DNA of 64,000 nt, taken from positions 62,001 to 126,000 of the forward strand of contig NZ_CP044543.1 in NCBI RefSeq assembly GCF_008932115.1. The letters run 5' to 3'. Below the pieces are notes generated by a model, which saw only the letters and a program-made list of their open reading frames with translations, ran no database searches and had not been told where the DNA came from. Of this stretch, positions 32,690 through 42,674 are shown piece by piece. The translations under genes and the position numbers were made by a program. Every line of letters begins with the position of its first letter. The first letter of the stretch is position 1. The stretch comes from Bradyrhizobium betae (GTDB lineage: Bacteria; Pseudomonadota; Alphaproteobacteria; Rhizobiales; Xanthobacteraceae).

Positions 32690-35600
32690 ATGCGGATTGA
32701 GCGGCGCCACACCACTTCGGGACAATCACCTTACGCCGGGATCGAATTCCGGCACACCACGTCGGAGATCAGGAATCCCGACGGCTCGGTCGTGTTCAAG
32801 CTGGAGAACGTCGAGGTGCCGACCGCGTGGTCGCAGGTCGCCTCCGACGTGCTGGCCCAGAAGTATTTCCGCAAAGCCGGCGTTGCCGCGCGCCTGAAGA
32901 AGGTCGAGGAGGAATCCGTCCCCTCCTTCCTGTGGCGCTCCGTGCCCGACACCGAAGCGCTCGCGGCCCTGCCCGAGAAGGAGCGCTATGTCAGCGAGCT
33001 CTCGGCCAAGCAGGTGTTCGACCGCCTCGCCGGCTGCTGGACCTATTGGGGCTGGAAGGGCGGCTACTTCACCTCCGACGCGGACGCCCAGACCTTCTAC
33101 GACGAGCTCCGCTACATGCTGACCATGCAAATGGTCGCGCCGAACTCGCCGCAATGGTTCAACACCGGCCTGCACTGGGCCTATGGCATCGACGGCCCCG
33201 GCCAGGGCCATTATTACGTCGACCCCTTCAGCGGCAAGCTGACCAAGTCCAAGTCGGCCTACGAGCACCCGCAGCCGCACGCCTGCTTCATCCAGGGCGT
33301 CGGTGACGACCTCGTCAACGAGGGCGGCATCATGGACCTCTGGGTCCGCGAGGCCCGCCTGTTCAAGTACGGCTCCGGCACCGGCTCCAACTTCTCGCGC
33401 CTGCGCGGGGAAGGCGAAAAGCTCTCCGGCGGTGGCCGCTCGAGCGGCCTGATGAGCTTCCTCAAGATCGGCGACCGCGCCGCGGGCGCGATCAAGTCGG
33501 GCGGCACCACGCGCCGCGCCGCCAAGATGGTCGTCGTCGACGTCGATCACCCTGACATCGAGACCTATATCGACTGGAAGGTGAAGGAGGAGCAGAAGGT
33601 CGCCGCGCTGGTCACCGGCTCCAAGATCAACCAGAAGCACCTCAAGGCGGTGCTGAAGGCCTGCGTCAACTGCGAAGGCTCGGGCGACGATTGCTTCGAC
33701 CCCGAGAAGAACCCTGCGCTCCGCCGCGAGATCAAGCTGGCGCGCCGCAGCCTCGTGCCTGACAATTACATCAAGCGCGTCATCCAGTTCGCCAAGCAAG
33801 GCTACAAGGACATCCAGTTCGACGTCTACGACACCGACTGGGATTCGGAAGCCTATCTCACCGTCTCCGGCCAGAACTCCAACAACTCGGTGTCGCTGAA
33901 GGACGACTTCCTGCGCGCGGTCGAGACCGACGGCGACTGGAATCTCGTCGGACGCACCACCAAGAAGATCACCAAGACGCTGAAGGCGCGCGACCTCTGG
34001 GAAAAAATTGGTTACGCCGCCTGGGCGTCGGCCGACCCGGGCCTGCACTTCAACACCACCATGAACGACTGGCACACCTGCAAGGCGTCCGGCGACATCC
34101 GCGCCTCCAATCCGTGCTCGGAATACATGTTCCTGGACGACACGGCGTGCAACCTCGCATCGGCGAACCTGCTGACGTTCTATGACATCGAGGCCAAGCG
34201 CTTCGACGTCGAGGGCTACGAGCATCTCTGCCGGCTCTGGACCATCGTGCTCGAAATCTCGGTGATGATGGCGCAGTTCCCGTCCAAGGCGATCGCCGAG
34301 CTCTCCTACGAGTTCCGCACCCTCGGCCTCGGCTATGCCAACATCGGCGGCCTCCTGATGACCATGGGCCTGCCCTATGACAGCAAGGAAGGCCGTGCCA
34401 TCGCCGGCGCGCTGACCGCGATCATGACCGGCATCACCTACAAGACCTCGGCGGAGATGGCTGGCGAGCTCGGCACCTTCCCCGGCTACAAGAAGAACGC
34501 CGCGCACATGCTGCGCGTGATCCGCAACCACCGCCGCGCCGCCCACGGCCAGTCCAACGGCTATGAGGCGCTCTCGGTCAACCCGGTGCCGATGGACCTC
34601 GTGTCCTGCCCGCAGACCGATCTGGTCACCCACGCCCAGGCCGCCTGGGATGCGGCGCTCGAGCTCGGCGAGAAGCACGGCTATCGCAACGCCCAGACCA
34701 CGGTGATCGCGCCCACGGGCACGATCGGCCTCGTGATGGATTGCGACACCACCGGCATCGAGCCCGACTTCGCCCTGGTGAAATTCAAGAAGCTCGCCGG
34801 CGGCGGCTACTTCAAGATCATCAACCGCGCGGTGCCCGCGGCGCTGCGTGCGCTCGGCTATCGCGAGAGCGAGATCGCGGAGATCGAAGCCTACGCCGTC
34901 GGCCACGGCTCGCTCTCCAACGCCCCCGGCATCAACGCCTCGACGCTGAAGTCCAAGGGCTTCACCGACGAAGCGATCGCCAAGGTCGAAAAGGCCCTGC
35001 CGACCGCCTTCGACATCAAGTTCGCCTTCAACAAATGGACCTTCGGCGAGGATTTCATCCGCGACCAGCTCGGCATCGGTGCCGAGGCGATCGCGGCCCC
35101 CGGCTTCGACCTGCTCCAGGCCGTCGGATTTACAAAACGCGAGATCGAGGCGGCTAACGTCCACATCTGCGGCGCGATGACGGTGGAAGGTGCCCCGCAC
35201 CTGAAGGCCGAGCACTATCCGGTGTTCGACTGCGCCAATCCCTGCGGCAAGATCGGCAAGCGCTATCTGTCGGTCGAGAGCCACATCCGCATGATGTCGG
35301 CGGCGCAGCCCTTCATCTCGGGCGCGATCTCCAAGACCATCAACATGCCGAACGACGCCACGGTGGAGGACTGCAAGTCCGCCTACATGCTGTCGTGGAA
35401 GCTGGCGCTGAAGGCCAACGCGCTCTATCGCGACGGCTCCAAGCTCAGCCAGCCGCTCAACTCGCAGCTCATCAGCGATGATGAGGACGAGGACGATGCA
35501 GTCGAGAGCCTCTACGAGAAGCCGATGGCGGCGCGTGCCGCCCAGGTCTCGGAGAAGATCGTCGAGAAGCTGGTCGAGCGCATCATCGTGATGCGCGAGC

Positions 35601-36457
35601 GCGAGAAGATGCCGGACCGCCGCAAGGGCTACACCCAGAAGGCGGTCGTCGGCGGCCACAAGGTGTACTTGCGGACCGGCGAATATGACGACGGCCGTCT
35701 CGGCGAGATCTTCATCGACATGCACAAGGAAGGCGCGGCGCTGCGCTCCTTCATCAACAACTTCGCCATCGCGGTGTCGCTGGGCCTGCAATACGGCGTG
35801 CCGCTCGAGGAATATGTCGACGCCTTCACCTTCACCCGCTTCGAGCCGGCGGGCCCCGTGCAGGGCAACGACAGCATCAAGTACGCGACCTCGATCCTCG
35901 ACTACGTCTTCCGCGAGCTCGCGGTGAGCTACATGTCGCGCTTCGACCTCGCCCATGTCGATCCCACCGAGTCCAACTTCGACGCGCTCGGCAAGGGCGT
36001 CGAGGAAGGCAAGGAGCCGGAGGAGCCGAGCCACCAGGCGAACAGGCTCGTGTCGCGCGGCCTCACCCGCTCCCGCACCGACAATCTGTTCGTGATGCGC
36101 GGCGGCTCCGCCGCTGTCACGCAAGGCAACGACAGCGCGCCCTCAGGCGGCAGCAAGGTCACAGCCTTGGCCGGCCACGGCGCGAGCGCCCGGGTCGGCG
36201 ACGTCCTCGAAGGCGCGGTCGCGCTGAAGCAGGAAGTCCAGCACGACCTCTCCCCCACCGAGAAGCTGGAAGCCCTGCAGTGGAGCAAGTCCGGCAGCGC
36301 CGCGCAGGCAGTGCCCAGCAAGGCCGAGCGCCGCGCCGAAGCCAAGGCCAAGGGCTATGAGGGCGAGATGTGCAGCGAGTGCGGCAACTTCACGCTGGTG
36401 CGGAATGGGACGTGTATGAAGTGCGATACGTGCGGCAGCACGACGGGGTGTTCGTGA
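32690..36457 (+). CDS. nrdJ: Vitamin B12-dependent (class II) ribonucleoside-diphosphate reductase
   Basis: 1255 residues, the long alphaproteobacterial NrdJ type. It reduces ribonucleotides with adenosylcobalamin and needs no oxygen. The active-site loop reads [22 protein letters not shown], with the N-P-C-S-E catalytic motif. APTGTIG and QNSNNSVSL are further reductase motifs. The C-terminus has a zinc-type cluster CSECG...CMKCDTCGS and a terminal GCS, the redox-relay cysteines. It is a single-gene unit with its own long leader and terminator. Confidence 0.96.
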
Positions 36458-36488
36458 GTAGCGACCCACAATAGTCTGTGAATTCACG

Positions 36489-36516
36489 AAGGGCGGCCGG
36501 AAGGTCGCCCTTTTTG
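36489..36516 (+). terminator. Rho-independent terminator after nrdJ
   Basis: AAGGGCGGCC and GGTCGCCCTT form a 10-pair stem with one G-U and a GGAA tetraloop, followed by TTTTT. Confidence 0.9.
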
Positions 36517-36583
36517 CCAATCTGATCTACAACTTTGCCGCGAGTTATGGTGATTCGCCAATAAAACGAAGGCTCTGGGAAGG

Positions 36584-37051
36584 ATGCGGGCAATAGGTCT
36601 GAATTTCCAAAAAGGACGTATTCGGGTTTCGGTCATGGATCGAGACTCGAACGGATCGATAACTCTGCTTTACGCGCGACAGATAACAATCGATCCAGAC
36701 CTCCCGCTGCCGGAACTCATGGAGCGTTATGCCAGCCAATTCCGAATTCTGATTGATGAATATGGCCCAGACTTAGTTGCAGCACGCCAAGTCTGGGACA
36801 TAAACGGAGTCGACGCAGCCGTCAGTCAGGTAGCGCCGTTTGGAATAGCTGCGTATGTATGCAACGAGAGGGATATAAGGTTTTGCCATTATACGCCGCA
36901 GGCCCTCAAACAACCGACGCGGTTCAATCTCGCCAAGGGAGTCAATCCGCTGAGCGCGGTTGATGGGACTTTTGGATCGCACCCACCATACTGGGACGAT
37001 ATCCAGAAAACATCGCTGCTCGTTGCTTGGCGCGCCCCGTTGGATCATTGA
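36584..37051 (+). CDS. RuvC/RNase H-fold-like protein of unknown function, first gene of cassette
   Basis: 155 residues. The pattern follows RuvC: strand IGLNFQKGRIRVSVMDRD (residues 4-21), PDLVAARQVW..N (62-74), and YTPQALKQ (103-110), which matches the RuvC YTP..VK motif. The RuvC acids are not conserved: position 7 is N and the second acid position is R68. So it may be a non-catalytic RNase H-fold protein, or the alignment is a coincidence of fold. Base composition is clearly lower in G+C than nrdJ. Three bases separate it from the kinase gene. Confidence 0.6.
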   Translation: MRAIGLNFQKGRIRVSVMDRDSNGSITLLYARQITIDPDLPLPELMERYASQFRILIDEYGPDLVAARQVWDINGVDAAVSQVAPFGIAAYVCNERDIRFCHYTPQALKQPTRFNLAKGVNPLSAVDGTFGSHPPYWDDIQKTSLLVAWRAPLDH

Positions 37052-37054
37052 AGC

Positions 37055-38068
37055 ATGCCAATTCATCTCACGGTTGGTCAACAGATTGGAAAGTACACCA
37101 CCTCCGACTTTCTCGGTGCTGGCGTCTTCGGTTCAGTATACCGGATGCGCGACAACCTCATGAATCGTGAAGTCGCCGTCAAGTTCGTTGAGAATCAGAA
37201 CCCATCAGCCTTTGTTGCTCACTACGAGGCCCAGATACTCCATCAATGCCGGCATGATCGAATTGTCACGGTCAACTCGGTCGACGTTCTGCAAGACACT
37301 CAAGCTCGATACTATGCCGCGATTGATATGGAGTATGCTGCGAACGGATCTGCTCAAAGACTGATCGACACCTCACACATTTCTGTTCGCCAGGCGATAA
37401 AATTGACCATAGACCTACTGTTTGCGTTAGGGCACGCACACCGTCAGGGCGTATTGCATCGCGATGTCAAACCGGCCAACATCCTCTTGGCGGGTACGAG
37501 GGGCAAATTGTCTGATTTTGGCTTGGCCGCCAATGCATCTGCCTCCCTAACGGCAAGCGGAGCTGGCTCCCCTGTCTACTGCGCCCCAGAGGTAGTCAAC
37601 GACGACAAAACTAACCCACGCACTGATATCTTTTCAGCAGGAATGACCCTCTTCCAACTGGTGAATAACATATCAAGCTTAGCTGCCTTGGTGCCGTCTT
37701 TGGACACCATCAAATTAGGTCGGGTTATTTCACACATTGGATACGCAAAATATGTCCCTCGACGTTTGCGATATATCTGCAACAAGGCGTGCGAGACAGA
37801 CCCGACCGATCGCTACGAGTCGGCCGATCAGATGCGACAAGCATTGGAAAAGCTTCACGTCGAACAAGATTGGATCAGATCAAACGCGACCACGTGGAGC
37901 GCGACGGTAAATAGCCAGCAGCACGAAATGACGATCGAGCACTCTAGCCAGTATGAAATGGTGTACAGAGTAAATGGGCGAAGACGAAATGCGCACTGTA
38001 CTTTGTGTGGCAGTCAGGCCTCCGCCTCACAGGCTCAAGAAGATTGGGTGTACAAAAACACGTTCTAG
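37055..38068 (+). CDS. Hanks-type serine/threonine protein kinase
   Basis: 337 residues. The kinase domain is about 12-270: glycine loop GAGVFGSVY (21-29), K43 in VAVKF, catalytic HRDVKPANIL (H135, D137), DFG at 154-156 and the APE-type CAPEVV. All catalytic residues are present. A C-terminal extension of about 60 residues ends with CTLCGS, one half of a possible zinc knuckle. There is no membrane helix. It lies between a RuvC-like and a nuclease-like gene in a low-G+C segment, unlike housekeeping PknB kinases. Confidence 0.92.
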   Translation: MPIHLTVGQQIGKYTTSDFLGAGVFGSVYRMRDNLMNREVAVKFVENQNPSAFVAHYEAQILHQCRHDRIVTVNSVDVLQDTQARYYAAIDMEYAANGSAQRLIDTSHISVRQAIKLTIDLLFALGHAHRQGVLHRDVKPANILLAGTRGKLSDFGLAANASASLTASGAGSPVYCAPEVVNDDKTNPRTDIFSAGMTLFQLVNNISSLAALVPSLDTIKLGRVISHIGYAKYVPRRLRYICNKACETDPTDRYESADQMRQALEKLHVEQDWIRSNATTWSATVNSQQHEMTIEHSSQYEMVYRVNGRRRNAHCTLCGSQASASQAQEDWVYKNTF

Positions 38069-38160
38069 TTCGGTTACACACTGGCAAGTCAAACTGCCGG
38101 ATCAATTCGCCGACCCAAGGTTCAAAGGGCGCGAAACGCGTACGGCACCGGTCTCCAATT

Positions 38161-39198
38161 TTGCGCGTTGGACTACAGATACTTCAAAGCGACGAATTTG
38201 ACGCCAACCTTGTGGATGAGACTCTATTTTCAAGGGTGCATCAGGCCATGGCCAAGCAGCAACGAAAATTGTCGCCCCTCTTCACTTATAGTCCCGCATC
38301 TGACCCCGGCTATGTGAACGTTAGAGACGCGAGCGATGGTCCATTAAAGTCAGCTCGCTGGCTCTGCGAATATCTCTGGATCATTTATCAGAATCACGCA
38401 GACGAACAATTTCGTACCGAATTTCGCAGCAATTTCGACCAGCGTTTTTGGGAGATGTATCTCACGATGACTCTGATCTTTTCGGGGTATGAGGTGACTT
38501 GTCCTAATCCAGGCCCAGATATCGGGGTAATACATCGCGGTCGCCGAATTTGGTTTGAAGCGACGACACCGCACAAAGGCGCTCCAACCAATCCCGACAG
38601 GGTCCCTACCCCAGCGGGGGGAATGCTGGAAGATGTTCCAGAGGACAAGCTGGTTCTTCGACACCTGTCAGCAGTATCGGCGAAGTGCAGCGAACAACAT
38701 AAGGCTTGGCTTGCTCGCGGGATTATTGCCAAAGAGGACGCATATATCGTTGCAATAAATACTCGTGAGCTAGGTTTTCATGATCCTAAGGCGGATCCAC
38801 CCATTATTCTGCAGACAGCCTACGGGATTGGAAAGCCTTTCTTCGAAATAGATCGCCAAACCGGGACTGTAGTTGCAAAGAAATATGAGCAGCGATCACA
38901 CATTTCTCGAACTCCGACTACACTGTCCACTAGCTCAGACAAGACCGCCCCCAGCAAACAGAAAGCACCAGTGGAAACCGGCGTTTTTCAGGATAAGCAA
39001 TATGCTTTCCTCAGCGGTCTTGTATGTTCGCACGTTGATGCCGCAAACTGCGCTGGAGAGATGGGGTCGGACTTTCAAGTGGCTAGCAACCCGAACGCTG
39101 AGGTATTGTTGCCCGATGACATTCGCTTACGAGGCAATCACTACGAAGGAAGGCGACAAGGGAGCGAAATTCAGGTCGTCAGGAAGTTCCGATCATAG
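38161..39198 (+). CDS. PD-(D/E)XK nuclease-like protein, last gene of cassette
   Basis: Start uncertain: TTG at 38161 gives 345 residues, ATG at 38248 gives 316; the frame is open even into the kinase gene. The core has FWEMYLTMTLIFSGYEVTCPNPGPDIGVIHRGR then RIWFEATTPHKG. With the 38161 start, PD is residues 119-120 and E133-A-T135 replaces the usual (D/E)xK. This is the PD-(D/E)XK arrangement with a non-standard third residue. Conserved-looking DAYIVAINTRELGF follows. Nuclease activity is inference only. Low G+C like its two upstream neighbours. Confidence 0.6.
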   Translation: MRVGLQILQSDEFDANLVDETLFSRVHQAMAKQQRKLSPLFTYSPASDPGYVNVRDASDGPLKSARWLCEYLWIIYQNHADEQFRTEFRSNFDQRFWEMYLTMTLIFSGYEVTCPNPGPDIGVIHRGRRIWFEATTPHKGAPTNPDRVPTPAGGMLEDVPEDKLVLRHLSAVSAKCSEQHKAWLARGIIAKEDAYIVAINTRELGFHDPKADPPIILQTAYGIGKPFFEIDRQTGTVVAKKYEQRSHISRTPTTLSTSSDKTAPSKQKAPVETGVFQDKQYAFLSGLVCSHVDAANCAGEMGSDFQVASNPNAEVLLPDDIRLRGNHYEGRRQGSEIQVVRKFRS

Positions 39199-39498
39199 CA
39201 AGCACGTAAGGTAAGTGAATGAAACGTACCCACCACTTGCTTTCCCCCGTCGATCACGCCTTCAGCTAACCCCGCCGACATTACACTCCGCGTCCGTCGG
39301 TCGCGGAATCGCGGTAACAGTGCACATTGATACCTCGCTCCGTCCTACGGATCGGCGGCTTCGCTCGAGTTTGGTTCCGGCTTCGATGCTCACAATGCTC
39401 GACCGGTGAATTACCTTTGCGGCTGCGCCCTTCTCTCCTAAACTCCCAACCCCGTCGGCATCAGTTCCGACGGGCCCGGTAGAAGCGGAGTTGACGTT
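39199..39498. other. Intergenic stretch before the ParB-like gene
   Basis: 300 bases with no credible gene. The only clear structure is the hairpin at 39451-39474. Composition returns to high G+C, marking the end of the low-G+C cassette. Confidence 0.4.
39451..39474. promoter_or_regulatory. Perfect inverted repeat before the ParB-like gene
   Basis: CCCGTCGG (39451-39458) and CCGACGGG (39467-39474) with eight bases between. It lies 24 bases before the start codon, where a repressor or a hairpin in the mRNA could control translation. Confidence 0.5.
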
Positions 39499-40014
39499 AT
39501 GCCCAAACCGGAAAGCTTCCCGATCGAGAAGATCTTCGTTCCCACGAAGCAGAAGAAGGCCCTCAGGCCGGAGAGCGTCGCGGAGATCGCGGAAAGCATG
39601 CTGGACATCGGACAGCAGGAACCCATTTCTGTTCGGCTCGACGGAGACCGCCTCGTTCTGGTCGAGGGACTGCATCGGTTAGAGGCCTGCAAGGCGCTCG
39701 GCGAGACGACCATTCTCGGGGTCGTCGTCCCGGCCGAACTGGCTCAACCCAAGCCGCTGCTCGCGGAGCGACCCGAGGTCGAGGCTGAGCGCCTCAAGAT
39801 GGCGCGATTGAAGCAGTTGCGCCTAGAGAAGGAAGCCGCGGAGGCATCGACGGCCGCCTTTAAGGGCGCTGGCGCAACGGAAGCGTCGCGCGCCCGTTCG
39901 GCGAAAGGCGTCCGCGACAATGCGAAGGCATCGCTGGGCCGGGCCGCGAAATCGGCGCCGAAATCATTGTCGGCCTGGATCAATCAGCAAAAGGGCAGCG
40001 GCGAACGCTATTGA
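39499..40014 (+). CDS. Small ParB/Srx N-terminal domain protein
   Basis: 171 residues. Residues about 5-80 resemble the ParB N-terminal/sulfiredoxin-like domain: FPIEKIFVPTKQKKALRPESVAEIAESMLDIGQQEPISVR and then VEGLHRLEACKALGE with the GxHR-type nucleotide-binding motif. The rest is alanine/lysine-rich with a basic end (SAWINQQKGSGERY). There is no helix-turn-helix, so it is not a chromosome-partition ParB. ParB-like ATPase or nuclease domains of this size occur in accessory regions. A 69-base copy of its 3' end recurs at 41447. Confidence 0.8.
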   Translation: MPKPESFPIEKIFVPTKQKKALRPESVAEIAESMLDIGQQEPISVRLDGDRLVLVEGLHRLEACKALGETTILGVVVPAELAQPKPLLAERPEVEAERLKMARLKQLRLEKEAAEASTAAFKGAGATEASRARSAKGVRDNAKASLGRAAKSAPKSLSAWINQQKGSGERY

Positions 40015-40028
40015 TGGCCGTCGAGGAC

Positions 40029-40070
40029 CTATTCGACCTTCACGTTCGTCTCTTCCGCGATCTGTTTCCA
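40029..40070 (-). pseudogene. Remnant of the 3' end of a Bug solute-binding gene
   Basis: Bases 40021-40070 match 41656-41705, the end of the intact Bug gene, at 45 of 50 positions (counted by hand). In the minus frame it reads WKQIAEETNVKVE and a stop, against WKKIVEETGVKVE in the intact gene. It lies six bases after the ParB-like gene. Confidence 0.75.
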
Positions 40071-40265
40071 AGATTACGGCGACAGTGCATAAAACCATGC
40101 ACGATGGCTTGGCGGCAAGAGCCGGTCATGTGCGGCGGCTGGCGGTGAGCGATTCGTCCGCCAGTTGTCACGCCAGGAAACCAGGCATCGACGCCCTTCA
40201 AATCCGGGCCACTGTCAGGTAGCCTTGGCACCACTGCCCGATCCGTGATTGCCTGAAGGCCCGGA

Positions 40266-40784
40266 ATGACCCTAGCGCCCACCAACGTTACCTTCGACGA
40301 AGCCACCATGCGGGTCGAACTGGCCGATGGGCGGACCATTGCCGTGCCGCTTGTCGCGTTCCCGCGACTGATGCAGGCGACGCCGGCCCAGCGCGAGCAG
40401 ATAGAGTTCGGTCGTCACGGGCTGCATTGGGAGGCCCTCAACGAAGATATCTCGATTGCGGGCCTGCTTGCAGCATTCGGCGAGGACAAGAGAGCATTGC
40501 AGATCGACGATCTCGTGCTCGGCACGACCAACGCGCCTTATCGTCGGTCGATCGCGGCGATCGAGCTAGCGAACGCCGTGACCGGCGCTGACGTCAGCGA
40601 TTGGCGGGTGCACGTCGCAACCTTCTTCACCGAAGTTCGTCCGGAACTCGTGGTCGCGTTCGCCCGGGCTCACGGCATCTCGCTGCCTGAGCTGACGCGC
40701 GCGTATCACACAATGAGGGGGGCGACCGGCGAAGCCAATCCCGCGCTGGAGAAGCTGATTGAGCAACTGGCGCCAACTGCTTGA
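40266..40784 (+). CDS. DUF2442-domain protein, probable partner of the AbiEii-type protein
   Basis: 172 residues. Residues about 5-85 follow the DUF2442 pattern (VTFDEATMRVELADGRTIAVPLVAFPRLMQATPAQR...HWEALNEDISIAGLLAAFG). The C-terminal half is helical with no recognised family (DWRVHVATFFTEVRPELVVAFARAHGISLPELTRAY). The next gene starts inside its 3' end. By position it is the candidate antitoxin or regulator of the nucleotidyltransferase downstream, but known AbiE systems use an AbiEi winged-helix protein instead. Confidence 0.75.
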   Translation: MTLAPTNVTFDEATMRVELADGRTIAVPLVAFPRLMQATPAQREQIEFGRHGLHWEALNEDISIAGLLAAFGEDKRALQIDDLVLGTTNAPYRRSIAAIELANAVTGADVSDWRVHVATFFTEVRPELVVAFARAHGISLPELTRAYHTMRGATGEANPALEKLIEQLAPTA

Positions 40785-41412
40785 CCGGATGCTGCGGGGG
40801 CTCGACCAACTCGGGTGCCGCGGGCAGCCCGTGCCGGATTGGATCCTCGGCGGCGGCACCGCGCTCATGATCCACACGGATCATCGCCTGAGCAAGGACA
40901 TCGATGCGTTCATCGACGATCCCCAGTATCTGGCGCTGCTGTCGCCCGACACAACCGACGTTTGGTCTTGCTCGGCTTGGGACTGCGCGGCCAACTATCT
41001 GAAGCTGAAATATCCGGAAGGCGAGATCGACTTCATAGTCACGGCGGCGATCTCGACTTTGCCAGCGATCGAGCAAACCATCGATCTGGATGGTGCGCGG
41101 CCATTGATCCGGTTGGATGCGCCGGCCGAGATCGCGCTCAAGAAGCTGCACTACCGCGCGACCATGCTGAAAGCGCGCGACATCTTCGATATCGCCGTGA
41201 TCGACGCAACCAGCGGCGATACACTCAGCGCGCATCTTCATGAGGTCACCGACAAGAAGTCCGATCTGCTGCGTCGTCTGGACGGCATGAAGGAGGATTA
41301 CCTCCGGGACGAACTCGCGGAGCTCGACATTCGACCGCGATGGGAAAAGCAGAAGCAGACTTGCCTGGAGACCGTCAAAGCTCTCGTCGCGCGGATACCA
41401 GATAGCGCCTAG
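40759..41412 (+). CDS. Nucleotidyltransferase AbiEii/AbiGii-like toxin family protein
   Basis: 217 residues from a TTG that overlaps the upstream gene by 26 bases; an ATG at 40789 is the alternative. The nucleotidyltransferase core is WILGGGTALMIHTDHRLSKDIDAFIDDP, with the GG-T and S-KDID motif (two acidic residues for Mg). Later EIALKKLHYRATMLKARDIFDIAV matches the family. AbiEii toxins inactivate growth by transferring nucleotides to tRNA or other targets. Here it pairs with a DUF2442 protein rather than AbiEi. Confidence 0.85.
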   Translation: MSNWRQLLDRMLRGLDQLGCRGQPVPDWILGGGTALMIHTDHRLSKDIDAFIDDPQYLALLSPDTTDVWSCSAWDCAANYLKLKYPEGEIDFIVTAAISTLPAIEQTIDLDGARPLIRLDAPAEIALKKLHYRATMLKARDIFDIAVIDATSGDTLSAHLHEVTDKKSDLLRRLDGMKEDYLRDELAELDIRPRWEKQKQTCLETVKALVARIPDSA

Positions 41413-41446
41413 AGCCACTCGAAGTGGTGCCGCGACCTTGCGTACT

Positions 41447-41515
41447 GCGAAATCGGCACCGAAAACAATGTCGGCCCGGATCACTCAGCAAAAGGGCAGC
41501 GGCAGCCGCTATTGA
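41447..41515 (+). pseudogene. Remnant of the 3' end of a ParB-like gene
   Basis: 69 bases matching 39946-40014 at 61 positions by hand count, including the stop codon. The encoded tail would be AKSAPKTMSARITQQKGSGSRY-like, read in pieces, against KSAPKSLSAWINQQKGSGERY in the intact gene. Nothing of the rest of the gene is present upstream. Confidence 0.75.
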
Positions 41516-41552
41516 GTGCCGGCTCCAGAATTTATCGTGCCGACGCGTACGC

Positions 41553-41650
41553 GGTGCCGTAGGGTGGGCAAAGGCGCACTTGCGCCGTGCCCACGACCTG
41601 TCTCGATCACGTACACGGCGTGGGCACGCTTCGCTTTGCCCAACCTACGA
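41553..41650. repeat. Dispersed palindromic repeat, copy A
   Basis: GTGCCGTAGGGTGGGCAAAG at the start and its near complement CTTTGCCCAACCTACG at the end, with internal GGCGCACTTGCGCC. A second copy lies at 44090-44187. It interrupts the right-hand copy of the duplicated junction between the ParB-like and Bug genes. Confidence 0.85.
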
Positions 41651-41663
41651 GAGCATCGCGGAC

Positions 41664-42674
41664 CTATTCGACCTTCACGCCCGTCTCTTCCACGATCTTT
41701 TTCCAGAACCCGGTCTCTTCGACCAGGATGCGGGAAAATTCGGCCGGGCCCTTGTTCACGACCTCGAAGCCGACCTCGGCCAGGCGCTGCTGCGCCGCCG
41801 GCTGTTGCAGGAACTCGGTGATCGCATTGTTGATGATCCCGACGACGCTGTCCGGCGTCCCCTTCGGCGCCATGACGCCGACCCAGGTATCGCCCTGGAT
41901 CTCCGGGAAGCCCTGCTCGATCATCGTGGGAACATCGGGAAGCAGTTTCGAGCGCGTCTTGCCGGTGACCGCGAGCGCGTTGAGTTGCCGCCCTGATATC
42001 ATCGGGCCGGCGGATGCCATGGTGCTCCACCCGATCGGCACATGGTTGCCGACCACGGCCTGAACCGCCGGGCCCGCGCCTGGAAACGGCACGCCGACGA
42101 TATCGAGCTTCTGGCTCACCCTGAATCGCTCCGCGAGAAGATGCGCCTGGGTCCCGACGCCGCCATGCGCGTAATTCTGATTGGAACGCGCTTTCAGGTA
42201 AGCGACCAGCTCCTTCGCATCCTTGACCGGGACGGAAGGATTGACGGACACCACGTGGGTCGAGGAGACCGACAGGTTGATGGCGACGAAATCGGCGATC
42301 GGATCATATGGAATGTTGGTGAAGACCGACGCGTTGACCGCATGCGTGCTCAACGCGAACAGGATGGTGTAGCCATCAGGCTCCGACCGCGCCGCCTGGA
42401 CCGTTCCGCGGTTGCCGGTCGCACCCGCGATGTTCTCCACCACGAAGCGCTGTCCAAGCTTTTCCGAAAGATACTGGCAGGCCAGGCGCGCATAGACATC
42501 GGCGGTGCCGCCGGGCGCGAAGGTGACGATGGCGCGAACCGGGCGATCAGGATAGGCCTGCGCCGATGCGATCCGCGGCGCGGCCAGCAGTGCTGCGGAG
42601 CCACCGACGATCCCCATGAACCGCCGGCGGCCGATCATGGTCTTCTGCTGTCCAAACGACGACGTCTTGCTCAT
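41664..42674 (-). CDS. Tripartite tricarboxylate transporter substrate-binding protein (Bug family)
   Basis: 336 residues from the ATG at 42674, which has GGAG eight bases upstream; a start 12 bases earlier lacks an SD. The twin-arginine-like RRRFMGIVGG leads a signal peptide ending ASAQAYP. The Bug fold is shown by VTFAPGGTADVYARL, FVVENIAGATGNRGT and DVPTMIEQGFPEI. It should capture a carboxylate in the periplasm. No TctA/TctB membrane genes are adjacent, as is common for Bug proteins. Confidence 0.92.
   Translation of the reverse strand: MSKTSSFGQQKTMIGRRRFMGIVGGSAALLAAPRIASAQAYPDRPVRAIVTFAPGGTADVYARLACQYLSEKLGQRFVVENIAGATGNRGTVQAARSEPDGYTILFALSTHAVNASVFTNIPYDPIADFVAINLSVSSTHVVSVNPSVPVKDAKELVAYLKARSNQNYAHGGVGTQAHLLAERFRVSQKLDIVGVPFPGAGPAVQAVVGNHVPIGWSTMASAGPMISGRQLNALAVTGKTRSKLLPDVPTMIEQGFPEIQGDTWVGVMAPKGTPDSVVGIINNAITEFLQQPAAQQRLAEVGFEVVNKGPAEFSRILVEETGFWKKIVEETGVKVE

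Follow-up and report, generated by a model that had tools for sequence, protein, structure and literature searches.

Downstream of nrdJ in Bradyrhizobium betae lies a short block of low-G+C DNA, which we analyzed within a stretch of 64,000 nucleotides (NZ_CP044543.1, positions 62,001-126,000; hereafter the window, in whose numbering all coordinates of the locus are given). The block (36584..39198) follows a gene identified by eye as nrdJ, encoding a class II (B12-dependent) ribonucleotide reductase (32690..36457, + strand). An earlier reading of this DNA, the original prediction, had described the block as a cassette of three genes running in one direction, and the corresponding open reading frames (ORFs) were confirmed, all on the + strand. 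The first encodes a RuvC-like protein of 155 aa (36584..37051), and the second, after the predicted gap of 3 bases, a Hanks-type Ser/Thr kinase of 337 aa (37055..38068). The third ORF (gene 3; 38248..39198, 316 aa) encodes a PD-(D/E)XK-like protein. The junction between the kinase gene and gene 3 had been left uncertain. In its longest form the third ORF spans 38005-39198 (+) and overlaps the kinase gene, which requires a GTG start at 38005; because alignments with database relatives begin at the ATG at 38248, giving 316 aa, the two genes are probably separated by a gap of 179 bases.

The block had also been called foreign-looking, and its composition agrees. The hand counts offered in support were exact (29 and 40 G/C among 60 bases at 37381-37440 and 34681-34740, respectively), and G+C is 0.526, 0.512, and 0.508 in the RuvC-like gene, the kinase gene, and gene 3, respectively, compared to 0.651 in nrdJ. 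In a profile of 1 kb bins, G+C dropped to 0.51 at the block only, with all remaining bins at or above 0.597.

The RuvC-like and kinase gene pair

The RuvC-like protein narrowly passed the Pfam RuvC model (PF02075; 24.6 bits, cut-off 22.2) and is predicted to adopt a RuvC / RNase H-like fold. The catalytic tetrad of RuvC endonuclease (Asp7/Glu66/Asp138/Asp141) is absent, as expected from the original description of a degenerate RuvC. Among 95 aligned family members, Asp7 was kept in none and Glu66 was lost in all, with Arg or Lys at the latter position in 92; the positions aligned with Asp138 and Asp141 mostly hold different residues, and an Asp two columns ahead of position 138 is retained in 93 rows. 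The fold match, a prediction, is to the RuvC Holliday junction resolvase; the loss of Asp7 and Glu66, read from the alignment, sets this family apart from that enzyme, as does the position of the RuvC-like gene, beside a kinase gene and outside a ruv operon. Five weak RuvC matches (L053-L057) were excluded as family members, since their GIDPG start marks housekeeping ruvC; a ruvA-like neighbor was seen by eye beside those whose surroundings were viewed. No PADLOC family matched the RuvC-like protein.

The kinase matched Pkinase (PF00069) with a Pfam E-value of 9.6e-41 and retains the glycine loop (GAGVFG) and the AVK, HRD, DFG, and APE motifs, and is thus the complete Hanks kinase that had been predicted. 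In an alignment of seven kinases, the six from other loci extended to the C-terminal end of the window kinase and shared a Trp and an NGRR-like motif there, within a conserved C-terminal extension of ~60 residues. The PADLOC matches of the kinase were PD-T4-6 and MAD6. No HipA family matched it, which sets it apart from HipA-type toxin kinases. No phosphatase family was matched among the six scanned proteins, which include only one kinase, and the block therefore lacks the composition of KKP.

We found the RuvC-like protein in 13 genomes: the window genome, G171 (L030/L032/L039), G053, Neorhizobium (L033), Desulfobacteraceae (L034), Accumulibacter (L035), Pirellula (L036), SZUA-421 (L037), G488, G487, G431, G864, and G646. 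The kinase is encoded by the next gene on the same strand in 12 of the 13, and the pair is distributed over Alphaproteobacteria, Accumulibacter, Desulfobacteraceae, Pirellula, and one unplaced bacterium. The exception is G646, in which the contig ends 723 bases past the RuvC-like gene; there (L059, 558-9290) the gene belongs to an island that also encodes multiubiquitin/E2, ThiF-JAB, and deaminase proteins, and no kinase gene appears before the contig end. Pairwise identities of the RuvC-like proteins and of the kinases were correlated across nine pairs (Pearson 0.93, Spearman 0.77), as is expected for co-inherited genes; this correlation is uninformative on binding.

The family is rare. It was detected in 3/265 genomes of the genus, 5/397 of the order, 2/289 of the class, and 2/398 of the phylum, counts that all include the window genome and that were made at E ≤ 1e-12 for class and phylum; removal of L053-L057 had lowered the order count from 10 matches to five. 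Neighbors of the pair include a SIR2-STAND gene at L035, an AlbA_2 gene at L034, and a DNA methylase gene at L038. In limited searches, no RuvC-like relatives were found in plasmids, phages, or viral contigs, and a PHROGs scan of four members gave no match; we rejected phage or plasmid cargo as a description of the pair on these grounds.

The original prediction placed gene 3 in the same cassette and assigned it a PD-(D/E)XK-like core. That assignment is weakly supported by sequence and model comparisons. No Pfam family matched gene 3. PADLOC matches were to PD-T7-5 (E 5e-10) and PD-T7-1 (E 8e-8), and the best Foldseek match of its AlphaFold2 model (pLDDT 86) was the Holliday junction resolvase Hjc, at a weak E of 0.096. 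In an alignment of 29 rows, G-P-D and Lys146 were present in 29/29 and E104 in 28/29; E69, D91, and E104 are conserved, whereas residue 106 is Thr or Val, in departure from the D...(D/E)xK motif. The membership in a cassette did not survive comparison of loci. Searched with a gene 3 profile, the remaining 12 loci of the RuvC-like protein, of 3.4-18 kb, gave no match. Conversely, neither the RuvC-like nor the kinase profile matched at any of 35 loci with gene 3 relatives, which span 3.2-16 kb apiece (the larger L040-L047 duplicate eight small ones). Co-occurrence, on which the original prediction had staked the cassette, thus failed for the triplet, which was never seen together elsewhere, and held for the RuvC-like/kinase pair.

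These results bear on the proposal that all three genes form one system, with the PD-(D/E)XK-like protein as an effector under kinase control. The shared strand and similar G+C fit such a system, but the mutual absences, the 179-base gap, and the company kept by gene 3 relatives all count against it, and we regard it as highly improbable. Relatives occur in 24/265 genus genomes (the window's counted, and many of them weak matches), and lie beside a C5 DNA methylase gene (L041), a SIR2-like gene under the Pfam cut-off (L040), and HNH and OLD-like genes identified by eye. No gene 3 match was found in phages; three relatives were found on viral contigs. One of these (L165, 6010-6885), 52% identical and low in G+C, sits between tail-like genes (by eye) on an uncultivated viral contig and looks like a phage-borne accessory gene. 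Because the other 12 RuvC-like loci lack gene 3 and the pair is missing where gene 3 relatives are found, gene 3 is likely to be a separate, independently acquired nuclease-like cassette.

The variable site behind nrdJ

nrdJ was present in 115/117 genus genomes examined, and the window gene is 71-72% identical over its full length to nrdJ at L058, L060, and L061 (tblastn). We took nrdJ flanks from 40 of 170 matching genomes of the order and from 60 of the 115 matching genus genomes, with long contigs preferred; the latter, three from the 40-genome order set, and the window gave 64 genus flanks. Neither the pair nor gene 3 was found behind nrdJ in the first 40 order flanks.

In the window, the variable low-G+C insert spans 36458..39311 (G+C 0.516), its right edge being approximate. 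The left edge is the nrdJ stop codon; in 56 of the 63 other genus flanks, DNA homology extends no further than 36458. On the right, homology with 36 other flanks restarts between 39312 and 39485, ahead of a ParB-like gene (39499..40014, +; NCBIfam parB_part, E 1.5e-6, under cut-off). The original prediction had taken 39499 as the start of an accessory module. The ParB-like gene is better described as the conserved right-hand neighbor of the site: such a gene was found within 4.6 kb of nrdJ, at 0.27-4.5 kb behind it, in 37/64 genus flanks, the window included. In 35 of these 37 flanks, the G+C of the interval from nrdJ to the ParB-like gene was below that of the 2 kb that follow (medians 0.548 and 0.624); over all genus flanks, the first 1.5 kb behind nrdJ had a lower G+C than the DNA at 4.5-6 kb in 62/64.

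To represent the cargo of each flank, we chose an ORF of at least 100 aa with G+C below 0.60 that starts within ~900 bases of the nrdJ stop. This rule yielded a protein in 49 of 63 flanks, and the 14 without a qualifying ORF were dropped. The 49 proteins fell into 42 clusters, or 45 with the three window proteins added. Pfam matches above cut-off were found for 27 of the 49, and 19 carried immune-type domains by a list of domains of our own. Directly behind nrdJ, an AAA_21 + DUF4435 arrangement was found three times (L066, 4337-5935; L155, 5142-6812; L163, 5205-6923), and AAA_21/AAA_15 proteins were found at L111, L117, L141, and L153. The remaining immune-type assignments comprised nSTAND3 (L104), SEFIR (L112), TIR (L114, L146), reverse transcriptase (L116), KAP (L133), AlbA_2 (L134), DUF4062 (L154), SIR2 (L158, L162), RelA_SpoT (L107), and a kinase at L110 (203-2760; Pkinase, E 1.8e-20), whose neighbor is HD-domain-like by eye. 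PARIS-like, OLD-like, and STAND types are among this cargo. By eye, E1/E2-like and patatin-like genes behind nrdJ at L082 (G374) are CBASS-like, and L098 and L099 carry toxin-antitoxin-type genes (Xre-RES).

PADLOC returned 223 families for the 49 cargo proteins and 50 for 29 downstream control genes. Among the 25 control matches listed, 24 were GajB and one was RTasHel, helicase-type families with one member each. The top cargo families were PARIS AriA and AriAB; because the strongest cargo match among the 25 families listed was PARIS AriAB (E 2.8e-200), PARIS-like systems are likely to use the nrdJ site. The site therefore has the features of a chromosomal defense hotspot, namely a conserved flank, variable cargo, and many defense-type genes, as judged with a control unmatched for G+C. 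By these comparisons the block appears to sit in an nrdJ-linked defense hotspot whose cargo differs in almost every related genome examined, in keeping with the defense-type setting originally suggested.

The pair itself lies directly behind nrdJ in 4 of the 13 genomes (the window, G488, G487, and G431), representing four families of the order. This placement, together with a lexA-like gene that follows the pair in G431, would suit a regulator that phosphorylates or otherwise controls NrdJ, or that acts in the SOS response or DNA repair. However, the pair occurs in so few genus genomes (3/265) although nrdJ is nearly universal there, its G+C is low, and TIR, SIR2, PARIS-like, and other genes occupy the same site elsewhere. 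Moreover, the window RuvC-like protein is 20-23% identical to those of G488, G487, and G431 compared to 27-39% identical to versions at sites away from nrdJ. We therefore consider a regulator of NrdJ or repair quite improbable. The other three nrdJ-linked proteins are 34-46% identical among themselves, and that of G488 is 51-55% identical to versions at other sites. Because the window protein is distant from these three and that of G488 is closer to versions elsewhere, we infer that the pair arrived at the nrdJ site at least twice.

How cassettes enter is suggested by copies of the nrdJ end that lie behind cargo at L147 (74 bases, 92%), L078 (51 residues, 69%), and L080 (30 residues, 47%), which point to recombination at the end of nrdJ. 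The second nrdJ 3' ends at L078 and L080 are degenerate, possible traces of insertion there. No copies of the nrdJ 3' end were found inside the window block, in which no recombinase gene was seen. In two genomes of a single genus, nrdJ is followed by a lexA-like gene in G404, and ~1.9 kb carrying the pair lies between these genes in G431. The last Ser codon of nrdJ varies among genomes between TCN and AGY. We rejected the sharp homology edge as proof that cassettes insert site-specifically, to the base, at the stop codon of nrdJ. The ParB-like stop has a comparable edge, with homology lost within 16 bases of it in 36/36 flanks, and sharp edges between species thus mostly reflect divergence outside genes. 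Insertion at the nrdJ stop is better supported by the G431/G404 contrast, the duplicated nrdJ tails, and the TCN/AGY codons.

Beyond the ParB-like gene, the window encodes a DUF2442 protein and then an AbiEii-type nucleotidyltransferase (40266-41412). Because homology with the 36 other flanks stops at the ParB-like stop codon (40014-40030), this region may be a second variable segment flanking that gene. An Rfam scan of 35900-42000 returned zero matches, and a scan for promoters and terminators found sites in numbers not above those in shuffled sequence.

A candidate defense function

On balance, we think it reasonably probable that the block consists of a two-gene module and a likely separate PD-(D/E)XK-like gene, and that the module serves in anti-phage defense, with a catalytically dead RuvC predicted to sense branched phage DNA and to activate the kinase. 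Mobility, the variable site, and defense-type neighbors argue for a defense role of the pair. In the mechanism we propose, the RuvC-like protein would bind, but not cleave, four-way junctions or replication forks in the DNA of an invader and would dock on the kinase, perhaps through the C-terminal extension of the latter; the released kinase would then phosphorylate host proteins and halt growth before phage release. Gene 3 would act independently. A more sweeping version is tentative, and we lean against it in its entirety: an active-site-less Holliday junction resolvase would sense branched phage DNA and license a cell-stopping Ser/Thr kinase from Rhizobiales to Planctomycetes, traveling as a small cassette in a turnover site at the nrdJ stop that is a main exchange point for defense genes in Bradyrhizobium chromosomes.

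Several observations weigh against a defense module of this kind. The kinase gene is frameshifted in 2/13 genomes (L039 and L060), and the module is therefore dispensable. The genomes were sampled by the RuvC-like protein, and kinases lacking this partner would escape. No adjacent defense gene was seen by eye at L033 and L063 (beside groEL; 3.4 kb of DNA). The PADLOC matches of the kinase are unspecific, as a PASTA kinase model fits about equally well (E 1.5e-41), and loss of catalytic residues is no demonstration of DNA binding. With respect to the site, 22 of the 49 cargo proteins had no Pfam match above cut-off, the immune-domain list was our own, and the control genes, chosen at G+C of at least 0.60, are core genes unmatched to the cargo, with 20 flanks yielding none.

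The broken genes also bear on the main rival, a toxin-antitoxin or guard arrangement, in which the kinase is a growth-stopping toxin restrained by the RuvC-like protein and set free once the latter is removed or displaced by a phage product, with no DNA sensing. The RuvC-like gene is also broken in L039, by a stop codon, and the kinase alone is broken in L060; thus, no intact kinase stands next to a broken RuvC-like gene in the sample, although this comparison is biased, since sampling began from the RuvC-like protein. The small gene comes first, and the close spacing of the two genes, 3 bases apart in the window and overlapping in L035, resembles that of many toxin-antitoxin pairs; genes of this type also occur behind nrdJ (Xre-RES, above). 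However, a 150-residue RuvC fold would be unusual as an antitoxin, and the basic residue that replaces Glu66 in 92/95 proteins would suit binding of nucleic acid or phosphate. We judge this arrangement unlikely, at about one chance in four. If defense by a branched-DNA sensor is correct, the pair would represent a new immune system built on a kinase whose partner is a dead DNA-junction enzyme, and the switching-on of bacterial defense kinases would become directly testable with one small partner and branched DNA as the single predicted ligand. For a large group of soil bacteria that fix nitrogen, the nrdJ site offers a simple place to search for unknown defense genes, as the cargo without Pfam matches illustrates.

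Comparison with known systems

Because the genes at the nrdJ site, many of them defense-like, change between nearly all of the related genomes that we compared, the pair is likely to be an undescribed system that stops viruses. In the literature searched (titles and abstract starts, with few subscription papers), we found, among the matches listed, no description of a RuvC-like and kinase pair in defense or of an nrdJ-linked defense site; these absences are weak evidence of novelty.

Stk2 of staphylococci and PD-T4-6 of E. coli are single-gene anti-phage Ser/Thr kinases. They share the Hanks kinase domain with the window kinase, to which the PADLOC profile match is unspecific, but each is a stand-alone gene, whereas the kinase here has a RuvC-fold partner in 12/13 genomes and a different short C-terminal extension. 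Single-gene anti-phage kinases are the subject of a title cited in PMC9519451 and of passages of PMC11514479. PglW of type 2 BREX, as described in PMC12839542, likewise joins a kinase with nucleic-acid modules, but it is a single fusion protein of 1400-1600 residues encoded within a BREX operon, unlike the separate genes here; no pglX, pglZ, or brxC was found among the block's three genes and the next three, and by these six genes the kinase does not belong to a pgl/brx operon. DS-6, as described in PMC13092281, shares the kinase-plus-partner layout, with a partner for which binding to both kinase and DNA is predicted; its kinase is HipA-type and its partner DUF3037/DUF1829, in contrast to the Hanks kinase and RuvC fold here. 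KKP comprises two kinases and one phosphatase, compared to one kinase here. The chromosomal defense hotspots of E. coli and Pseudomonas aeruginosa, which lie between core genes, resemble the nrdJ site in having a conserved flank gene and small defense cargo with fast turnover, and differ in that nrdJ is the flank gene here, both in Bradyrhizobium and in further families of the order. The pair is therefore a kinase-based candidate system within a chromosomal defense hotspot, both of which are kinds already known.
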